From Enterococcus haemoperoxidus ATCC BAA-382 (GTDB lineage: Bacteria > Bacillota > Bacilli > Lactobacillales > Enterococcaceae), in the NCBI RefSeq assembly GCF_000407165.1, contig NZ_KE136479.1, positions 1,747,464-1,811,463 on the forward strand: a stretch of 64,000 bases of DNA, given 5' to 3'. Shown here in pieces: positions 32,964-48,257 of the stretch (position 1 is the first letter of the stretch; each line of letters starts with the position of its first letter). The notes under the pieces were generated by a model. It searched no databases, was not told the origin of the DNA, and was given only the letters and a program-made list of their open reading frames with translations. Position numbers and translations under genes: made by a program.

Positions 32964-33836
32964 TCAAAGATCCAGTATGCTTAAAATTTTCGCTTTTTCT
33001 TCAGTTGTACAAGATACAAGAGGTAAACGTAAATCCCCAACGGAAATGCCCATTTCGTTCAACACTGCCTTTACAGGTGCTGGTGAAGGAACCGAAAACA
33101 AAGCATTCATCTTAGGTAACAACTGCCGCTGAATGCTTGCAGCCGTTTTGACTTCTCCACGATCTAATGCCTGGAACATATCGTACATTTCAGTACCGAA
33201 CACATGGCTTGCGACCGAAATCACCCCTTGTCCACCTATCGCTTTTATTGAAAAAGCTAAGGAGTCTTCTCCAGTATACACTAAAAAGTCTTTTGGTGCC
33301 TTTTCTATCAACTCAGTCAATGCATCTAAGCCGAAACATTCTTTAATTGCAATCACATTTTCTAACTCAGATAAGCGCAAAGTTGTTTCGACATCAAGGC
33401 TTGCTACGGTTCTTCCTGGAACATTATATAGAATAATTGGCAAGTCACTCGCCTCAGCAATTGCCTTAAAATGTTGATACAGACCTTCTTGATTTGGTTT
33501 ATTGTAATAAGGTACGACTGCTAACCCTGCATCGATTCCTCTAATAGCTGATAATTCTTTTACAAATTCAACAGAATCACGTGTATCATTGGTTCCCACA
33601 CCACAAATAATCGGCACTCTTCCATTAACTAAGCGAATCACTTCATTGAACAACTCAATTTCTTCATCATGAGTCAATGTTGGCGATTCACCTGTCGTTC
33701 CGGCTAAAATAATTCCTTCTGTATGATGATCAAGCAAATGTTCAACCAACTGAGGCAGCTTAGCAAAATCGATTGCGCCGCTTTCATCAAAAGGTGTGAC
33801 CATTGCTGTAATTATCGTTGCATTTTCTAAATTCAT
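32964..33836 (-). CDS. dapA: 4-hydroxy-tetrahydrodipicolinate synthase
   Basis: 290 aa. Condenses pyruvate with aspartate semialdehyde, the first committed step to lysine and diaminopimelate. Schiff-base Lys165 in VIAIKECFG, Tyr137 in ILYNVPGRT, and the TTGESPTL loop (47-54) are present. It is followed by rnjB and preceded, across a 416-bp repeat-filled leader, by asd. The AGGAGG site lies 8 nt before the ATG. Confidence 0.95.
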
Positions 33837-33856
33837 ACTTACTACCTCCTAATTTT

Positions 33857-34036
33857 AAAAGCGTAGCGGGCTCATTTAGGCTCGACTGGAAAATAGGAAA
33901 ATACGTTTGTGACGCTTTTTGTCACAGGCAGATTTTATCTTTTTCCCGAAACCTTTAATCCTTAGAGCTTTAGCTCATCGGAATTGATGAGATCGAAGCA
34001 GAGCATAGTGACTAACCCGCGAAGCTAGGTAACGTT
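33857..34036 (-). repeat. Structured leader repeat, copy A (before dapA)
   Basis: About 180 nt, read on the minus strand. It starts AACGUUACCUAGCUUC and ends in GCUUUUAA next to the dapA SD. Closing pair GCGGG/CCCGC (34020-34016 with 33870-33866). Main hairpin: UGUGAC (33926-33921), loop AAAAAGC, GUCACA (33913-33908), with GGAAAA and UUUUCC pairing outside. Relative to copy B it has an extra 60-nt arm with the hairpin CTCATC/GATGAG. No T-run follows it. Confidence 0.7.
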
Positions 34037-34155
34037 AAAAGCTAAAAGAGCTCAGTCAGACTCGGCAAGAAAATAGGAAATAATGACTGAGGTGCTTTTT
34101 ACCTCATTCATTATTTATCTTTTCTCCGAGAGGCTAGCTCTTGAAGCTAGATAAC
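34037..34155 (-). repeat. Structured leader repeat, copy B (before dapA)
   Basis: About 119 nt, directly joined to copy A. Closing pair AAGAGCT/AGCTCTT (34142-34136 with 34052-34046). CTCGG/CCGAG (34130-34126 with 34065-34061), then a long arm ending in UGAGGU, loop AAAAAGC, ACCUCA (34106-34088). The 5' side can instead form a local hairpin CTAGCT/AGCTAG (34150-34134), which excludes the closing pair. Confidence 0.7.
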
Positions 34156-34230
34156 ACATGGCAAAATAACTTGTACACTCTTGACCGAAAAACAGATCTA
34201 AGGATTTTTCCCGTCCTTCATATTTTATAT
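34156..34230 (-). repeat. Degenerate leader repeat, copy F
   Basis: On the minus strand the 3' part (UUUUUCGGUCAAGAGUGUACAA and on to GUUAUCUAGC of copy B) lines up closely with the sequence of copy D that precedes copy C at 35.6 kb. The hairpin core is only partly recognisable. Together F-B-A form a tandem array between asd and dapA. Confidence 0.5.
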
Positions 34231-34252
34231 TTCAAAAAAATCCAGATACTAT

Positions 34253-35308
34253 TTAAACCCTCACTAAATCCATCTCATGCAGTGTTTCCGCAATTTGAAC
34301 TGAATTCCAAGCAGCACCCTTTAATAAATTATCAGAAACAACCCACATATGATACCCCTTGTCAATATCGATATCTTGACGAATTCTCCCTACAAATGTT
34401 TCTTTGCGATCGATACTCGTTAAAGCTTGCGGATAAAGTTGTTGACTTGGATCATCTTGCAAAACTGCACCTGGAGCATCAGCGATTAATTGTTTGATTT
34501 TGCTCACGTCAGAACCATCTTCTTTGACCTCAATATAAATTGATTCAGAATGACCAGACAATACAGGAATACGAACACACGTGGCTACAACTTTAATACT
34601 GTCATCTTCCATGATTTTTTTCGTCTCATTGATCATCTTCCATTCTTCATACGTATAATCAGCATCTGCAAAGACATCAATCTGGGGTAAGGCGTTAAAT
34701 GCGATCGGATAATGTTTTTTGTCGCCACCCGATGGTAAAATATCAGCTTCTAATTTGTCAGCAGGCGTGCCGTTGATATACGCTAACGCTTGTGATTTCA
34801 GCTCTTCCATCGCATTGATTCCTGCTCCGCTCACAGCTTGATAAGTTGATACGATCAAACGGTCCAAACCATAAGCTTGTCTGATTGGTTCAAGAGCTAC
34901 CATCATTTGAATCGTCGAGCAATTTGGGTTAGCAATGATCCCTTTATGACGCTTTAACGCATCAGGATTGACTTCTGGGACAACTAAAGGGACTTCTGGG
35001 TCCATTCTGTAATGACTAGTATTGTCTACTACAACAGCTCCACGTTTAACTGCTTCTGGAGCATATTGTTTTGAAATATTTCCGCCAGCACTGAATAAAG
35101 CAATATCTATATCTGTAAATGACTCAGGCACTAACTCTTCAATTATAAGAGTTTGTCCTTTAAACGTTACTTCTTTTCCCGCTGAACGTTTTGAAGCTAA
35201 AAGTTTAACCTGATTTATTGGTAATGATGTTTCTTCCAACATTTCGATCATTTTAGTGCCCACAGCACCAGTTGCGCCTACCACGGCAACATTATAATTA
35301 CTTTTCAT
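34253..35308 (-). CDS. asd: Aspartate-semialdehyde dehydrogenase
   Basis: 351 aa. Reduces aspartyl phosphate; the product feeds DapA and the threonine/methionine branch. NADP-binding VGATGAVG (residues 10-17), catalytic Cys130 in NPNCSTIQ, and [11 protein letters not shown] (about 242-252) with the active-site His. Start is at a clear GAGAGGAG site. A 7-bp inverted repeat lies in its upstream region. The next gene in the same direction is dapA, after the repeat array. Confidence 0.95.
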
Positions 35309-35394: not shown

Positions 35395-35559
35395 TGATTT
35401 TGCTTTAATTTTGTCATAAAAGAAAAAGAAAAATTTGTTTCATAACATTTCAAATCATTTTTTAATGACGTTCTTATGATTCGAGCATCATAGTCGACTA
35501 AATTTTTTTGCAGTTTTATACTGGCTCTGCGGCTTATTTTTTGTTGGCATTGTCTTGTT

Positions 35560-35638
35560 AAATCTTTTGGGAAAAGATGATTGAGGTAAAAAAACTTAGT
35601 TCTATTTTTCTATCAAGATTGGACAAACTATTATGCCA
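35560..35638 (+). repeat. Degenerate leader repeat, copy D
   Basis: Plus strand. It begins near TTTTGGGAAAAGATGATTG, keeps GAGGTAAAAAAACTTA (a decayed form of the TGAGGT-AAAAAGC-ACCTCA hairpin of copy B) and TATTTTTCTATCAAGATTGG, and then joins copy C. Its 3' part lines up closely with copy F. The stem is no longer fully paired. Confidence 0.5.
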
Positions 35639-35765
35639 AACGTTATCTAGCTTCAAGGATTGAAGATCTTTTGGAAAAAACGGAAATGGAACGAGGCAAA
35701 AAGTGACAACGTCAATGTTTCCTATTTTCCTGTTAGAACTGAACGTGCCCGTTACACTTTTAAAT
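35639..35765 (+). repeat. Leader repeat, copy C (before the keto-acid decarboxylase gene)
   Basis: Plus strand, 127 nt. It starts AACGTTATCTAGCTTCAAG as in copies A and B, keeps GGAAAA/TTTTCC (35673-35678 with 35725-35730), GGAAA/TTTCC inside, and AAAAAG at the apex. It ends GTGCCCGTTACACTTTTA next to TTAGGAGG, as in copy A. The apical stem is less regular than in A and B, so this copy has diverged. Confidence 0.6.
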
Positions 35766-35779
35766 TAGGAGGATGCTCA

Positions 35780-37426
35780 ATGTACACCATATCAGATTAT
35801 TTATTGGATCGTTTAAAGGAATTAGGAATCGATGAAGTATTTGGGGTTCCTGGAGATTATAATTTGCAATTTTTAGACCATATCACAGCGCGAGAAGACC
35901 TAAAATGGATCGGTAATGCCAATGAGTTAAATGCTGCATATATGGCTGATGGGTATGCGCGAACTAAAGGAATTTCAGCTTTTGTGACGACATTTGGTGT
36001 GGGAGAATTAAGTGCTGTCAATGGTTTAGCAGGTAGTTATGCGGAAAATGTACCTGTTGTTGAAATTATTGGTTCACCGACAACAACTGTTCAAAACAAT
36101 AAAAAACTTGTTCATCACACTTTAGGCGATGGTGATTTCCTGCGCTTTGAAAAAATGCATGAAGAAGTAACAGCTGCAATCGCTCATTTGACTATAGAAA
36201 ATGCCACCTCAGAAATCGACCGAGTATTGACTATTGCAATGACAGAAAAACGTCCAGTTTATATTAATTTACCAATTGATATAGCTGAAACAAAAACAAA
36301 CAAACCGAATAAACCTTTACAAAAAATGACAGAAAGATTAACAGAAGCTGAAGCAACTATTTTAAGCAAAGTTGAAAAAGCTCTACAACAAGCAGAAAAT
36401 CCAGTTATCATTGCTGGACATGAAATTTTAAGTTACCATATAGAACATCAATTAAACGAGTTCATCCAAAAATTTAATTTGCCAATTACGACATTACCCC
36501 TAGGAAAAGGCGCATTTGATGAAGAAGATTCTCACTATATGGGAACATATTCAGGATCACCTACTGAAGAGCCTCTGAAAAGTCGTGTTGATAATGCAGA
36601 TCTTGTTTTACTTTTAGGCGCAAAATTGACGGACTCAGCAACATCTGGTTTTAGTTTTGGTTTTACAGACAAACAAATCATCTCGATTGGCGCAACAGAG
36701 GTCTTATTTTATGGTGAAAAACACGAAGCAATTCAGTTAGATCGTTTCGTTTCTGCTTTATCAACGCTATCATTTTCTAGATTCACAGGAGACTTACTTC
36801 CAGTAAAACGTATATCCAAAGTAGAATTCAAAGATGAACAACTGACTCAAAAACGGTTCTGGAAAATGGTAGAAACTTTTCTATTGCAAGGAGATACTGT
36901 GGTTGGCGAACAAGGAACTTCTTTCTTTGGGCTAACAAATGTTCCGCTAAAAAAAGACATGCACTTTATCGGACAGCCATTATGGGGATCGATTGGTTAT
37001 ACTTTCCCTTCTACTTTAGGTAGTCAAATCGCAAATAAAGATAGTCGTCACCTGTTGTTTATCGGAGATGGTTCGTTGCAATTGACTGTTCAAGAATTAG
37101 GGACTGCAATTCGAGAAAAACTGACACCCATCGTTTTTGTGATCAATAATAACGGTTATACGGTTGAACGCGAAATCCATGGTGCTACCGAGCAATACAA
37201 CGATATTCCCATGTGGGATTATCAAAATCTGCCGCTAGTCTTTGGCGGAACTAGTCAAACTGTGGCAACTTACAAGGCGACTACAGAAGCTGAATTAGCT
37301 GAAGTGATGAAGTCTGCTAGAAAAGATACTGAACGATTACAATGGATCGAAGTGGTGATGGATCAAGAAGATGCCCCTTTGTTATTGCAAAAATTGGCCA
37401 AGATTTTTGCAAAACAAAATTCGTAA
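35780..37426 (+). CDS. kdcA: ThDP-dependent branched-chain 2-keto acid decarboxylase (KivD/KdcA-like)
   Basis: 548 aa from ATG 35780, behind TTAGGAGG; the frame is open further up through the leader repeat but has no site. It matches what I recall of Lactococcus KivD/KdcA along the whole length: MYTISDYLLDRL, FGVPGDYNLQFLD, NANELNAAYMADGYAR with the ThDP Glu (residue 49 region), the HHTLGDGDF pair of His, and the ThDP motif GDGSLQLTVQELGTAIREKLTPIVFVINN. It would turn keto acids from Val/Leu/Ile or Phe into aldehydes. Indolepyruvate or pyruvate decarboxylase activity is possible. The leader contains repeat copies D and C. Confidence 0.85.
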   Translation: MYTISDYLLDRLKELGIDEVFGVPGDYNLQFLDHITAREDLKWIGNANELNAAYMADGYARTKGISAFVTTFGVGELSAVNGLAGSYAENVPVVEIIGSPTTTVQNNKKLVHHTLGDGDFLRFEKMHEEVTAAIAHLTIENATSEIDRVLTIAMTEKRPVYINLPIDIAETKTNKPNKPLQKMTERLTEAEATILSKVEKALQQAENPVIIAGHEILSYHIEHQLNEFIQKFNLPITTLPLGKGAFDEEDSHYMGTYSGSPTEEPLKSRVDNADLVLLLGAKLTDSATSGFSFGFTDKQIISIGATEVLFYGEKHEAIQLDRFVSALSTLSFSRFTGDLLPVKRISKVEFKDEQLTQKRFWKMVETFLLQGDTVVGEQGTSFFGLTNVPLKKDMHFIGQPLWGSIGYTFPSTLGSQIANKDSRHLLFIGDGSLQLTVQELGTAIREKLTPIVFVINNNGYTVEREIHGATEQYNDIPMWDYQNLPLVFGGTSQTVATYKATTEAELAEVMKSARKDTERLQWIEVVMDQEDAPLLLQKLAKIFAKQNS

Positions 37427-41851: not shown

Positions 41852-42793
41852 TTATAACTGATACAAATATTCAGCAAGAGATGACGCTTTTTTTAATAGA
41901 CTTTCCTTAAGTTGAATTGGCTCTATTTGTATAATGGCTGTTCCAAAACGAAGGAAATAATCCGTAATAAATTCCTCTTCTGTCTTATGATAATAACCAT
42001 TAATGAGATAATTTCCCTCAGATACTTGGATTGACATTGAGGGGTAATTTTCCTTAGAGAAAATATCTTTGCCTTTTTCATTAACTTTGATTGAAAATGA
42101 CAGTTTTTTTTCGCTTTGATAAAAGGTTTCGGCTTTTTCTAGCAGTGTTTCAAGTGATAACGCCGCTTGGGTGTTTTCTTCTTCAAGTGACATGATTTTA
42201 TCGCAACGAATGACACGAATTTGTTGTGTTTCATTATTCCAAATTCTAGCATACCATTGACCAAACTTAGATGAAAGCTGTACAAATTGAGCCTTGATCG
42301 ACACGATTTCTTGTTTTTTTGCATACTGAACGTTAAAAACTTTTTCATGAAGGATTCCTTCAACGATTTCTTTTAAATACTGACTCGCGTTACTATGGTT
42401 GACTTGTTCAAGCATGATGATTCTGCGCATTAACAAAAGCTCTTGCTGTAATTTCTCTGGTAAAACCTGACTATATTTTAATTCAAGGGTGCTACTTTCC
42501 ATGTTAAAAGGAGTAGATCGATAGCCTTTTAGTGTTAACAAAGCAAAATAAAGAGCATAAATTTCACCTTTCGTAAACAACCCAGGAGCCACTATACGGG
42601 TATCTAATAGCTGATACTTGCCATATCTTCCAAGTTCCGAATAAATCGGCAAACCAATTTCTTCAAGAGACTGTATATCTCTTAATGCGGTGCTTTTTGA
42701 AATACTATATCGTTCTATCAGTTCTTTTAAATTGAAACTATTTTTATCAGCTAAAAAAAGAATCATATCATTTATTCGTTCTGCTTTTTTCAT
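41852..42793 (-). CDS. DeoR/YafY-type HTH and WYL domain regulator
   Basis: 313 aa from ATG 42793, preceded by AGGAGGGG. N-terminal HTH (KAERINDMILFLADKNSFNLKELIERYSISKSTALRDIQSLEE, about 2-44), then a WYL domain (about 135-215; WYARIWNNETQQIRVIRCDKI) and a C-terminal extension. WYL domains sense small ligands or nucleic acids. Its upstream region holds a 17-bp inverted repeat shared with the divergent VOC gene. Confidence 0.85.
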   Translation of the reverse strand: MKKAERINDMILFLADKNSFNLKELIERYSISKSTALRDIQSLEEIGLPIYSELGRYGKYQLLDTRIVAPGLFTKGEIYALYFALLTLKGYRSTPFNMESSTLELKYSQVLPEKLQQELLLMRRIIMLEQVNHSNASQYLKEIVEGILHEKVFNVQYAKKQEIVSIKAQFVQLSSKFGQWYARIWNNETQQIRVIRCDKIMSLEEENTQAALSLETLLEKAETFYQSEKKLSFSIKVNEKGKDIFSKENYPSMSIQVSEGNYLINGYYHKTEEEFITDYFLRFGTAIIQIEPIQLKESLLKKASSLAEYLYQL

Positions 42794-42807
42794 AACCCCT
42801 CCTAAAA

Positions 42808-42824
42808 GTATCATGTTTTGATAC
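42808..42824. promoter_or_regulatory. Inverted repeat between the WYL regulator and VOC genes
   Basis: GTATCA (42808-42813) and TGATAC (42819-42824) with a 5-nt gap; an AGTATACT palindrome follows at about 42833. It is placed to control both divergent genes. Binding by the WYL protein is inferred. Confidence 0.5.
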
Positions 42825-42877
42825 CTTTAAAAAGTATACTAAAAGTGGAAAGAAAATAAAAGAAATGAGGAATTGAT

Positions 42878-48159: not shown

Positions 48160-48257
48160 AGTCTTTTCGCTCCTTTGCCCTGATCCATTTGCTGCATCAG
48201 AGTTTATTTGTCGGTATACAACAGTACTATAATAGCATGATTCGTTTATCGATGCAA

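Follow-up and report, generated by a model that had tools for sequence, protein, structure and literature searches.

Background

The EFAR repeats of Enterococcus faecalis were reportedly the subject of a paper of 2007. Efa-1 of the same species, 163 bp long and present in 65 intergenic copies, is described as a pair of adjacent stem-loops (PMC2267715). Efa elements are stated to prefer the vicinity of the 3' ends of coding sequences (CDSs), and preliminary data are mentioned by which Efa RNA may raise the stability of co-transcribed mRNA (PMC1590033). In Streptococcus pneumoniae, the BOX elements are small, modular intergenic repeats of variable tandem number that can alter the expression of their neighbors (PMC3049150), and they are over-represented between convergent genes (PMC3049150, Table 1). 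ERIC, YPAL and similar MITE-like palindromes are described as non-autonomous, hairpin-forming and co-transcribed, and for YPAL, sites with and without the element have been described (PMC2229807). In the portions of the open-licence literature consulted, we recognized neither a published repeat targeted to Shine-Dalgarno (SD) sequences nor an enterococcal leader repeat.

The window studied here is a 64,000-nt stretch of the Enterococcus haemoperoxidus ATCC BAA-382 genome (contig NZ_KE136479.1), and its asd-dapA leader carries copies of a dispersed, near-palindromic repeat of about 118 nt. Like Efa/Efa-1 (EFAR) as published, this repeat is a dispersed Enterococcus hairpin that has a second stem-loop in some copies; this likeness was judged from published descriptions and one E. 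faecalis record. It differs from Efa, which is described as lying near CDS 3' ends (PMC1590033), in that most copies precede SDs in sense orientation. Efa-1 is given as 163 bp of paired stem-loops; unit A of the window has 178 nt with an extra hairpin and unit B has one hairpin in 118 nt; the body of the repeat is usually a single 118-nt hairpin, which is sometimes arrayed. Modularity and variable tandem number are common to this repeat and to BOX, a comparison made by description only, although the SD side dominates here. The repeat resembles ERIC and YPAL in being apparently non-autonomous, hairpin-forming and co-transcribed, but a fixed spacing of a few nucleotides to the SD does not appear in the part of their description consulted (PMC2229807).

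The asd-dapA leader

Read from the sequence, the gap between asd and dapA is 416 nt long (33837-34252), as originally given. The dapA gene (32964-33836, minus strand) is an open reading frame (ORF) of 290 aa that matches NCBIfam TIGR00674 with 324 bits against a cut-off of 206. The asd gene scores above its own NCBIfam cut-off, the RNase J gene behind dapA is also confirmed by NCBIfam, and dapA orthologues are found in 22 of 22 genomes of the genus.

The original prediction had placed three related units, F, B and A, in tandem on the minus strand of this gap. B and A are real. Repeat unit B (34034-34155, minus strand) consists of a 118-nt body and a 4-nt linker, and is matched by our covariance model at 34153-34036 (124.9 bits, E = 1.2e-32). 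Repeat unit A (33856-34033, minus strand) is 178 nt long by sequence, including an extra internal hairpin, and is matched at 33974-33856 (96.6 bits, E = 1.3e-24); both units are among the 35 members from which the model was built, so their matches are partly by construction. The extra hairpin module in unit A covers about 58 nt (33952-34009, minus strand), its approximate limits having been set by eye against unit B. The apical arms that had been reported (UGAGGU/ACCUCA in B and UGUGAC/GUCACA in A), the common loop AAAAAGC and the proposed closing stems are all present in the sequence. Unit A ends at its 3' side in GCUUUUAA and, as had been claimed, directly adjoins the dapA SD, AGGAGG (33845-33850, minus strand). 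The third member of the series, the F segment (34156-34252, minus strand), is not recognizable as a unit and gives no model match at E <= 0.05; it is probably the decayed remnant of an older unit. In the related genome G019, a longer remnant occupies the position of the F segment (by eye, with a second nhmmer piece merged).

No Rfam family covers the asd-dapA leader region at the gathering threshold, and a permissive scan of 33500-34700 gave seven matches that were all far below gathering scores. The lysine riboswitch, the T-box and other known RNAs, the first two of which had shown no recognizable core in the original prediction, are ruled out for the region by these scans. A terminator scan flagged only the apical-arm hairpins (four sites, against 1.2 in shuffles). 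Elsewhere in the window, an Rfam L31-Firmicutes ribosomal protein leader was matched at 48170-48202 (minus strand) with 34.3 bits, just above its gathering score.

A dispersed family with covarying structure

The leader DNA was found by blastn at 61 places in its own genome. The covariance model, which was built on a 35-unit alignment with a 37-pair structure, gave 130 matches there, a few being antisense twins of others. For the analyses of position, 146 matches were curated by hand; 14 antisense twins and 8 further matches, weak or partial, were removed (22 in all), which left 124 copies on 78 stretches. Same-strand copies less than 300 nt apart were merged, yielding 83 clusters, 26 of which contain two to five copies each. 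The covariance-model search of enterococcal genomes that had been proposed found matches in all 22 genomes of the genus searched, with 3 to at least 150 per genome; when filtered more strictly, matches remained in 50 of 105 genomes from the family, spread over 7 of 17 genera. In the close species E. crotali, E. ureilyticus, E. termitis and E. moraviensis, the dapA leader carries the element in all four.

The compensating change first noticed between the stems of A and B extends to covariation beyond chance in the 35-unit alignment, where a covarying secondary structure is clear on three of five measures and weak on two. Pairing was seen in 91.0% of cells compared with 80.0% in column shuffles, 167 cells were changed on both sides compared with 60.4, and the covariation score was 0.365 compared with 0.183; none of 500 shuffles reached any of these values. 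When partners were slid by one to three columns, only 36-52% of cells paired. On the two weak measures, 20 pairs had both partners changed, compared with 17.1 in shuffles (a value reached in 26 of 500), and 46 further pair types were seen, compared with 45.2 (reached in 225 of 500). The alignment also contains conserved unpaired blocks, GAU and CCUA, and a loop that is mostly AAAAAGC; by eye, these blocks are altered in several of the copies found in other genera.

A linker module that recurs between or ahead of units has the variable form GCTTTGAAACACAG...GAACGTTGTTACC (L265, L267, L285, L288, L290 and others, by eye). Given this module, the repeat family looks modular.

Position relative to Shine-Dalgarno sequences

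In 66 of the 83 clusters of the E. haemoperoxidus genome, a start codon with its SD follows the 3' end of the element in sense, at a distance of 14-23 nt and most often of 18 nt. The first SD-like motif begins 4-6 nt after the element in 58 of those 66, and AGGAGG is present in 53. A leader was called from an SD pattern followed by an ORF of at least 40 codons, and two versions of the script gave counts of 67 and 68 among the 83 clusters, the 68 including two at distances of 46 and 55 nt. Classified by 3' end, 67 of the 83 are leaders, 3 lie at an antisense stop codon and 13 at neither. No start codon was found by the script for 15 clusters, some of which look like leaders by eye, and 19 of the 83 also begin near an upstream stop codon. 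Element and downstream gene point the same way in 75 of 81 scorable clusters. As a control, 91,498 positions were scanned, of which 448 (0.5%) have a start 14-23 nt ahead of them; every seventh position was taken on both strands of the stretches from the same genome, the element leaders themselves included. In the relatives G006 and G013, the distance from cluster end to start codon is 14-22 nt for 39 of 43 high-scoring clusters, these copies having been drawn from the best-scoring matches rather than at random and one of the 43, at a stretch edge, not being examined. Placement is thus strongly non-random, and the random scatter in both orientations that the original prediction had named as evidence against a leader-regulatory class was not what we observed.

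The genes that follow have little in common. From 68 downstream genes, 30 were picked by eye and scanned against NCBIfam; 26 match families of unrelated function, and no common function was found among the 30. Of these 26 matches, 21 are at or above the curated cut-off, and five are below every curated cut-off (L117 and L147, which both run off the end of their stretch, L125, L163 and the decarboxylase gene of the window). Genes starting 14-23 nt behind an element include dnaA, ligA, nfo, tsf, hslV, aroC, pyrB, menB, lgt and those for ribosomal proteins L9 and L25, ornithine carbamoyltransferase and a V-ATPase subunit.

Filled, empty and decayed sites

Orthologous leaders at dapA, dnaA, nfo and gatD were compared across 22 genomes. 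The dapA leader contains the element in 16 of them, in one to four copies of which the last is always against the SD, and both copy number and subtype vary between species. In a four-gene tree, the 16 genomes make up exactly one clade (the crown), and the remaining six, G017 and G012 among them, fall outside it. At dnaA, a forward match of at least 33 bits occurs in 13 of 22 genomes, in 10 of them against the SD, and the SD context TTAAGGAGGTCAC is common to the filled genomes and to the empty G012. A copy stands at the nfo SD in 11 of 22 genomes, and the others have displaced copies, 3' remnants or none; the clean nfo site of G010, which lies inside the crown, is probably a later loss. Between murT and gatD, names taken from NCBIfam matches below curated cut-offs, copies are found at the SD in G000 (one) and G011 (four). 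The copy in G000 has split the murT-gatD coding overlap just before the SD, and 9 of 22 genomes have a clean empty overlap (by eye).

Filled and empty orthologous sites, a feature of MITEs, were also called by script. Among 49 filled clusters at the four loci, the script matched 20 to near-empty orthologous sites, giving 90 pairs; many of these share a filled site and some are not at SDs. In 82 of the 90 pairs (19 filled clusters and 26 empty loci), nhmmer gives no piece within 60 nt on the empty side, and remnant pieces are present in the 'empty' partner of the other 8. At all four loci, dapA, dnaA, nfo and gatD, the empty sites too possess an SD, so the element need not have supplied it. No clear target-site duplication was seen by eye at the compared sites, where the junctions are A+T-rich and ambiguous.

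Decay is apparent by eye as half copies or 3' remnants at gatD, nfo and a permease leader. Half-elements stand before gatD in G008, G013, G006, G019, G014 and G003 (L327, L328, L329, L330, L332 and L334, by eye, L328 and L329 having no nhmmer match). The apical-arm motif AATGAGG of the half-element, close before the gatD ATG, may now serve as the SD.

Strand asymmetry and SD accessibility

If the leader RNA is constrained, G-U pairs are expected to outnumber A-C mismatches on the sense strand, because an A-C mismatch is the same mutation seen on the other strand. On the leader strand, the G-U:A-C ratio was 176:163 in the element's own genome (122 rows) and 53:69 in G006 and G013 (98 rows), and a clear sense-strand excess of G-U was found in neither set. 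A weak lean towards G-U was present in dapA leaders (45:34, p = 0.26) and dnaA leaders (22:12, p = 0.12). The ratio was reversed in more distant genomes (32:98, 75 rows), which is suggestive only, as 20 A-C cells come from one pair, the rows are related, and the genomes individually gave 20:34, 1:15, 5:46 and 7:6.

Folding without an alignment gave a similar picture. The sense strand was the more stable one in just 20 of 84 leader copies of the own genome and in 0 of 7 E. faecalis copies, and the antisense strand was more stable on average in all ten sets, not significantly so in G089. The sense strand still folds strongly (mean -32.5 kcal/mol). Since the antisense strand is the one transcribed when the element sits behind a stop codon, the clade with SD-side copies usually transcribes the weaker strand. 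With no G-U excess and a more stable complement, the covariation does not imply selection on RNA structure of the leader strand, which the original prediction had drawn from it.

Predicted accessibility of the SD was equal with the element and with a shuffled element (medians 0.31 and 0.33, p = 0.71), and was lowered relative to a control in which the flanks were joined (0.31 against 0.41, p = 0.016). Pairing of the conserved CCUA block with the SD was considered and is unsupported by folding.

Other genera and E. faecalis

Four more distant genomes (G005 of the same genus and G093, G065 and G089 of other genera) were represented by 40 clusters chosen from the listed matches. Only 2 of the 40 are leader-type, ending 28 and 19 nt before the start; in 16 the 3' side runs up to, or nearly to, the stop codon of an opposed ORF, and 22 have neither arrangement. 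Among 30 further copies, six each from G005, G093, G065, G089 and G031, there is one leader. At L447 (G065:C1:2731600-2733500), in another genus, eight tandem copies end at the stop codon of an opposed ORF.

The E. faecalis record NZ_CP143580.1 has 9 weak model matches at E <= 0.002. Eight of these places were checked; none of the 8 is a leader and 5 abut an antisense stop codon. The nearness to CDS 3' ends that is described for Efa is thus found in the E. faecalis record and partly in the distant genomes, and is rare in the E. haemoperoxidus genome, where 3 of 83 clusters have their 3' end at an antisense stop codon. The extra hairpin of unit A has 78% identity to the same record over query positions 151-222 of 311, a related module being present in the E. 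faecalis repeat. The best reading of these sequence resemblances is that the repeat of the window is distantly related to an E. faecalis repeat that fits the Efa (EFAR) family. NZ_CP143580.1 is a 747-kb 'plasmid' record with the typical chromosomal genes metK, adhE, tgt, udk and proC, and may be a chromosomal piece.

Origin and role of the leader copies

We consider it probable that the units are a non-autonomous, mobile palindromic repeat of the Efa/EFAR kind with an SD-side niche in one clade, and no dedicated dapA switch; 'mobile' rests on the comparison of filled and empty sites. The original prediction had left a choice between a dispersed structured repeat settled in leaders and a new cis-regulatory RNA. 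It is the former that agrees with the 61 blastn places, the 130 model matches, the co-orientation in 75 of 81 clusters and the filled and empty sites, and the latter that conflicts with the unrelated downstream genes, the G-U:A-C ratio of 176:163 and the greater sense-strand stability in only 20 of 84 copies. A riboswitch-like RNA binding a ligand for the control of lysine or diaminopimelate synthesis is very improbable. A covarying structure in the dapA leader of 16 of 22 genomes is what such an RNA would present, but the element also precedes dnaA, nfo, tsf, ligA, aroC, the L9 and L25 genes and others, a gene list that argues against a lysine-specific class; its dapA copies vary by species in number and subtype, and it has neither an Rfam match nor a sense-strand G-U signal.

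Under the favored reading, copies would multiply in tandem and spread to new sites, presumably mobilized in trans by an enzyme. In the three sampled genomes of the clade, most copies stand in sense, with the 3' end usually 4-6 nt before an SD of the type also present at empty sites, and the most likely cause of this placement would be an insertion preference for the sequence at the ribosome-binding site. After insertion, the copies would decay. The hairpin would join the 5' leader with a near-neutral effect on expression, having no role there as a ligand sensor or conserved regulatory RNA. Targeting is preferred over selection at the SD as the most likely cause of the niche. More tentatively, and as something we hold slightly short of an even chance, the element may be guided to ribosome-binding sites, in sense and a few nucleotides before the SD, in scores of leaders (dnaA and ligA among them) of one clade, the family having switched from the stop-codon side to the SD side.

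Several observations pull the other way. Retention at dapA in all 16 crown genomes, with changing copies, could reflect a benefit, and the tight spacing fits selection for SD function as well as it fits targeting. The folding strength of the sense strand, the weak G-U lean at dapA and dnaA, the SD accessibility lowered relative to joined flanks and the copies that do not obey the placement rule also count against the favored reading. One alternative is a leader module that spread as a mobile repeat and was kept because its SD-side hairpin adjusts translation or the stability of mRNAs, possibly with the help of an RNA-binding protein or RNase. The spacing of 14-23 nt to the start codon, the conserved unpaired GAU/CCUA blocks with their mostly AAAAAGC loop, the retention at dapA in 16 of 16 crown genomes and the preliminary mRNA-stability data mentioned for Efa RNA (PMC1590033) speak for it. 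We regard it as unlikely, however, given that the leader strand has no G-U excess and its complement folds better on average, that SD accessibility equals that of a shuffled element, that the GAU/CCUA blocks differ in several other-genus copies, and that many genomes have no copy, or a displaced or reduced one, at nfo, dnaA and gatD. It is improbable, too, that an ordinary repeat inserted at random, with selection sparing only the copies off genes, promoters and SDs. Leaders between promoter and SD are short, and the 19 of 83 clusters that begin near an upstream stop agree with little allowed space. Such a repeat, however, predicts common antisense and promoter-upstream copies, in place of which 75 of 81 are co-oriented, and its non-leader copies should be younger and higher-scoring, whereas non-leader and leader copies have medians of 108.4 and 104.0 bits (p = 0.89). 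Moreover, the gatD copy entered coding sequence right at the SD, and the distant genomes, presumably under the same selection, rarely have the element at SDs (2 of 40).

A genuine preference of the element for SD-side insertion would be unusual among the targets chosen by bacterial mobile DNA, and would amount to a natural rewiring of many leaders at once; if selection keeps the element at the SD, one leader hairpin would be common to scores of genes. In either case, covariation in a leader need not indicate a riboswitch, as a proliferating palindrome leaves just such a signal; the balance of G-U and A-C and the folding of each strand help to separate the two.

Further copies in the window

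The original observation was largely right, and is more general than the dapA leader. A model match at 42760-42872 (minus strand, E = 0.0036) overlaps coding sequence and was taken as chance. Two copies that the original prediction had missed, as it had the extra hairpin in unit A, lie together on the plus strand (35541-35762) in the divergent leader of an indolepyruvate-decarboxylase-like gene (35780-37426, plus strand, 548 aa; NCBIfam TIGR03393, E = 3e-170, below the curated cut-off). The first of them is degraded (35541-35641, 29.1 bits, E = 2.3e-5), and the second (35644-35762, 61.9 bits, E = 1e-14) ends 17 nt short of the decarboxylase start codon.
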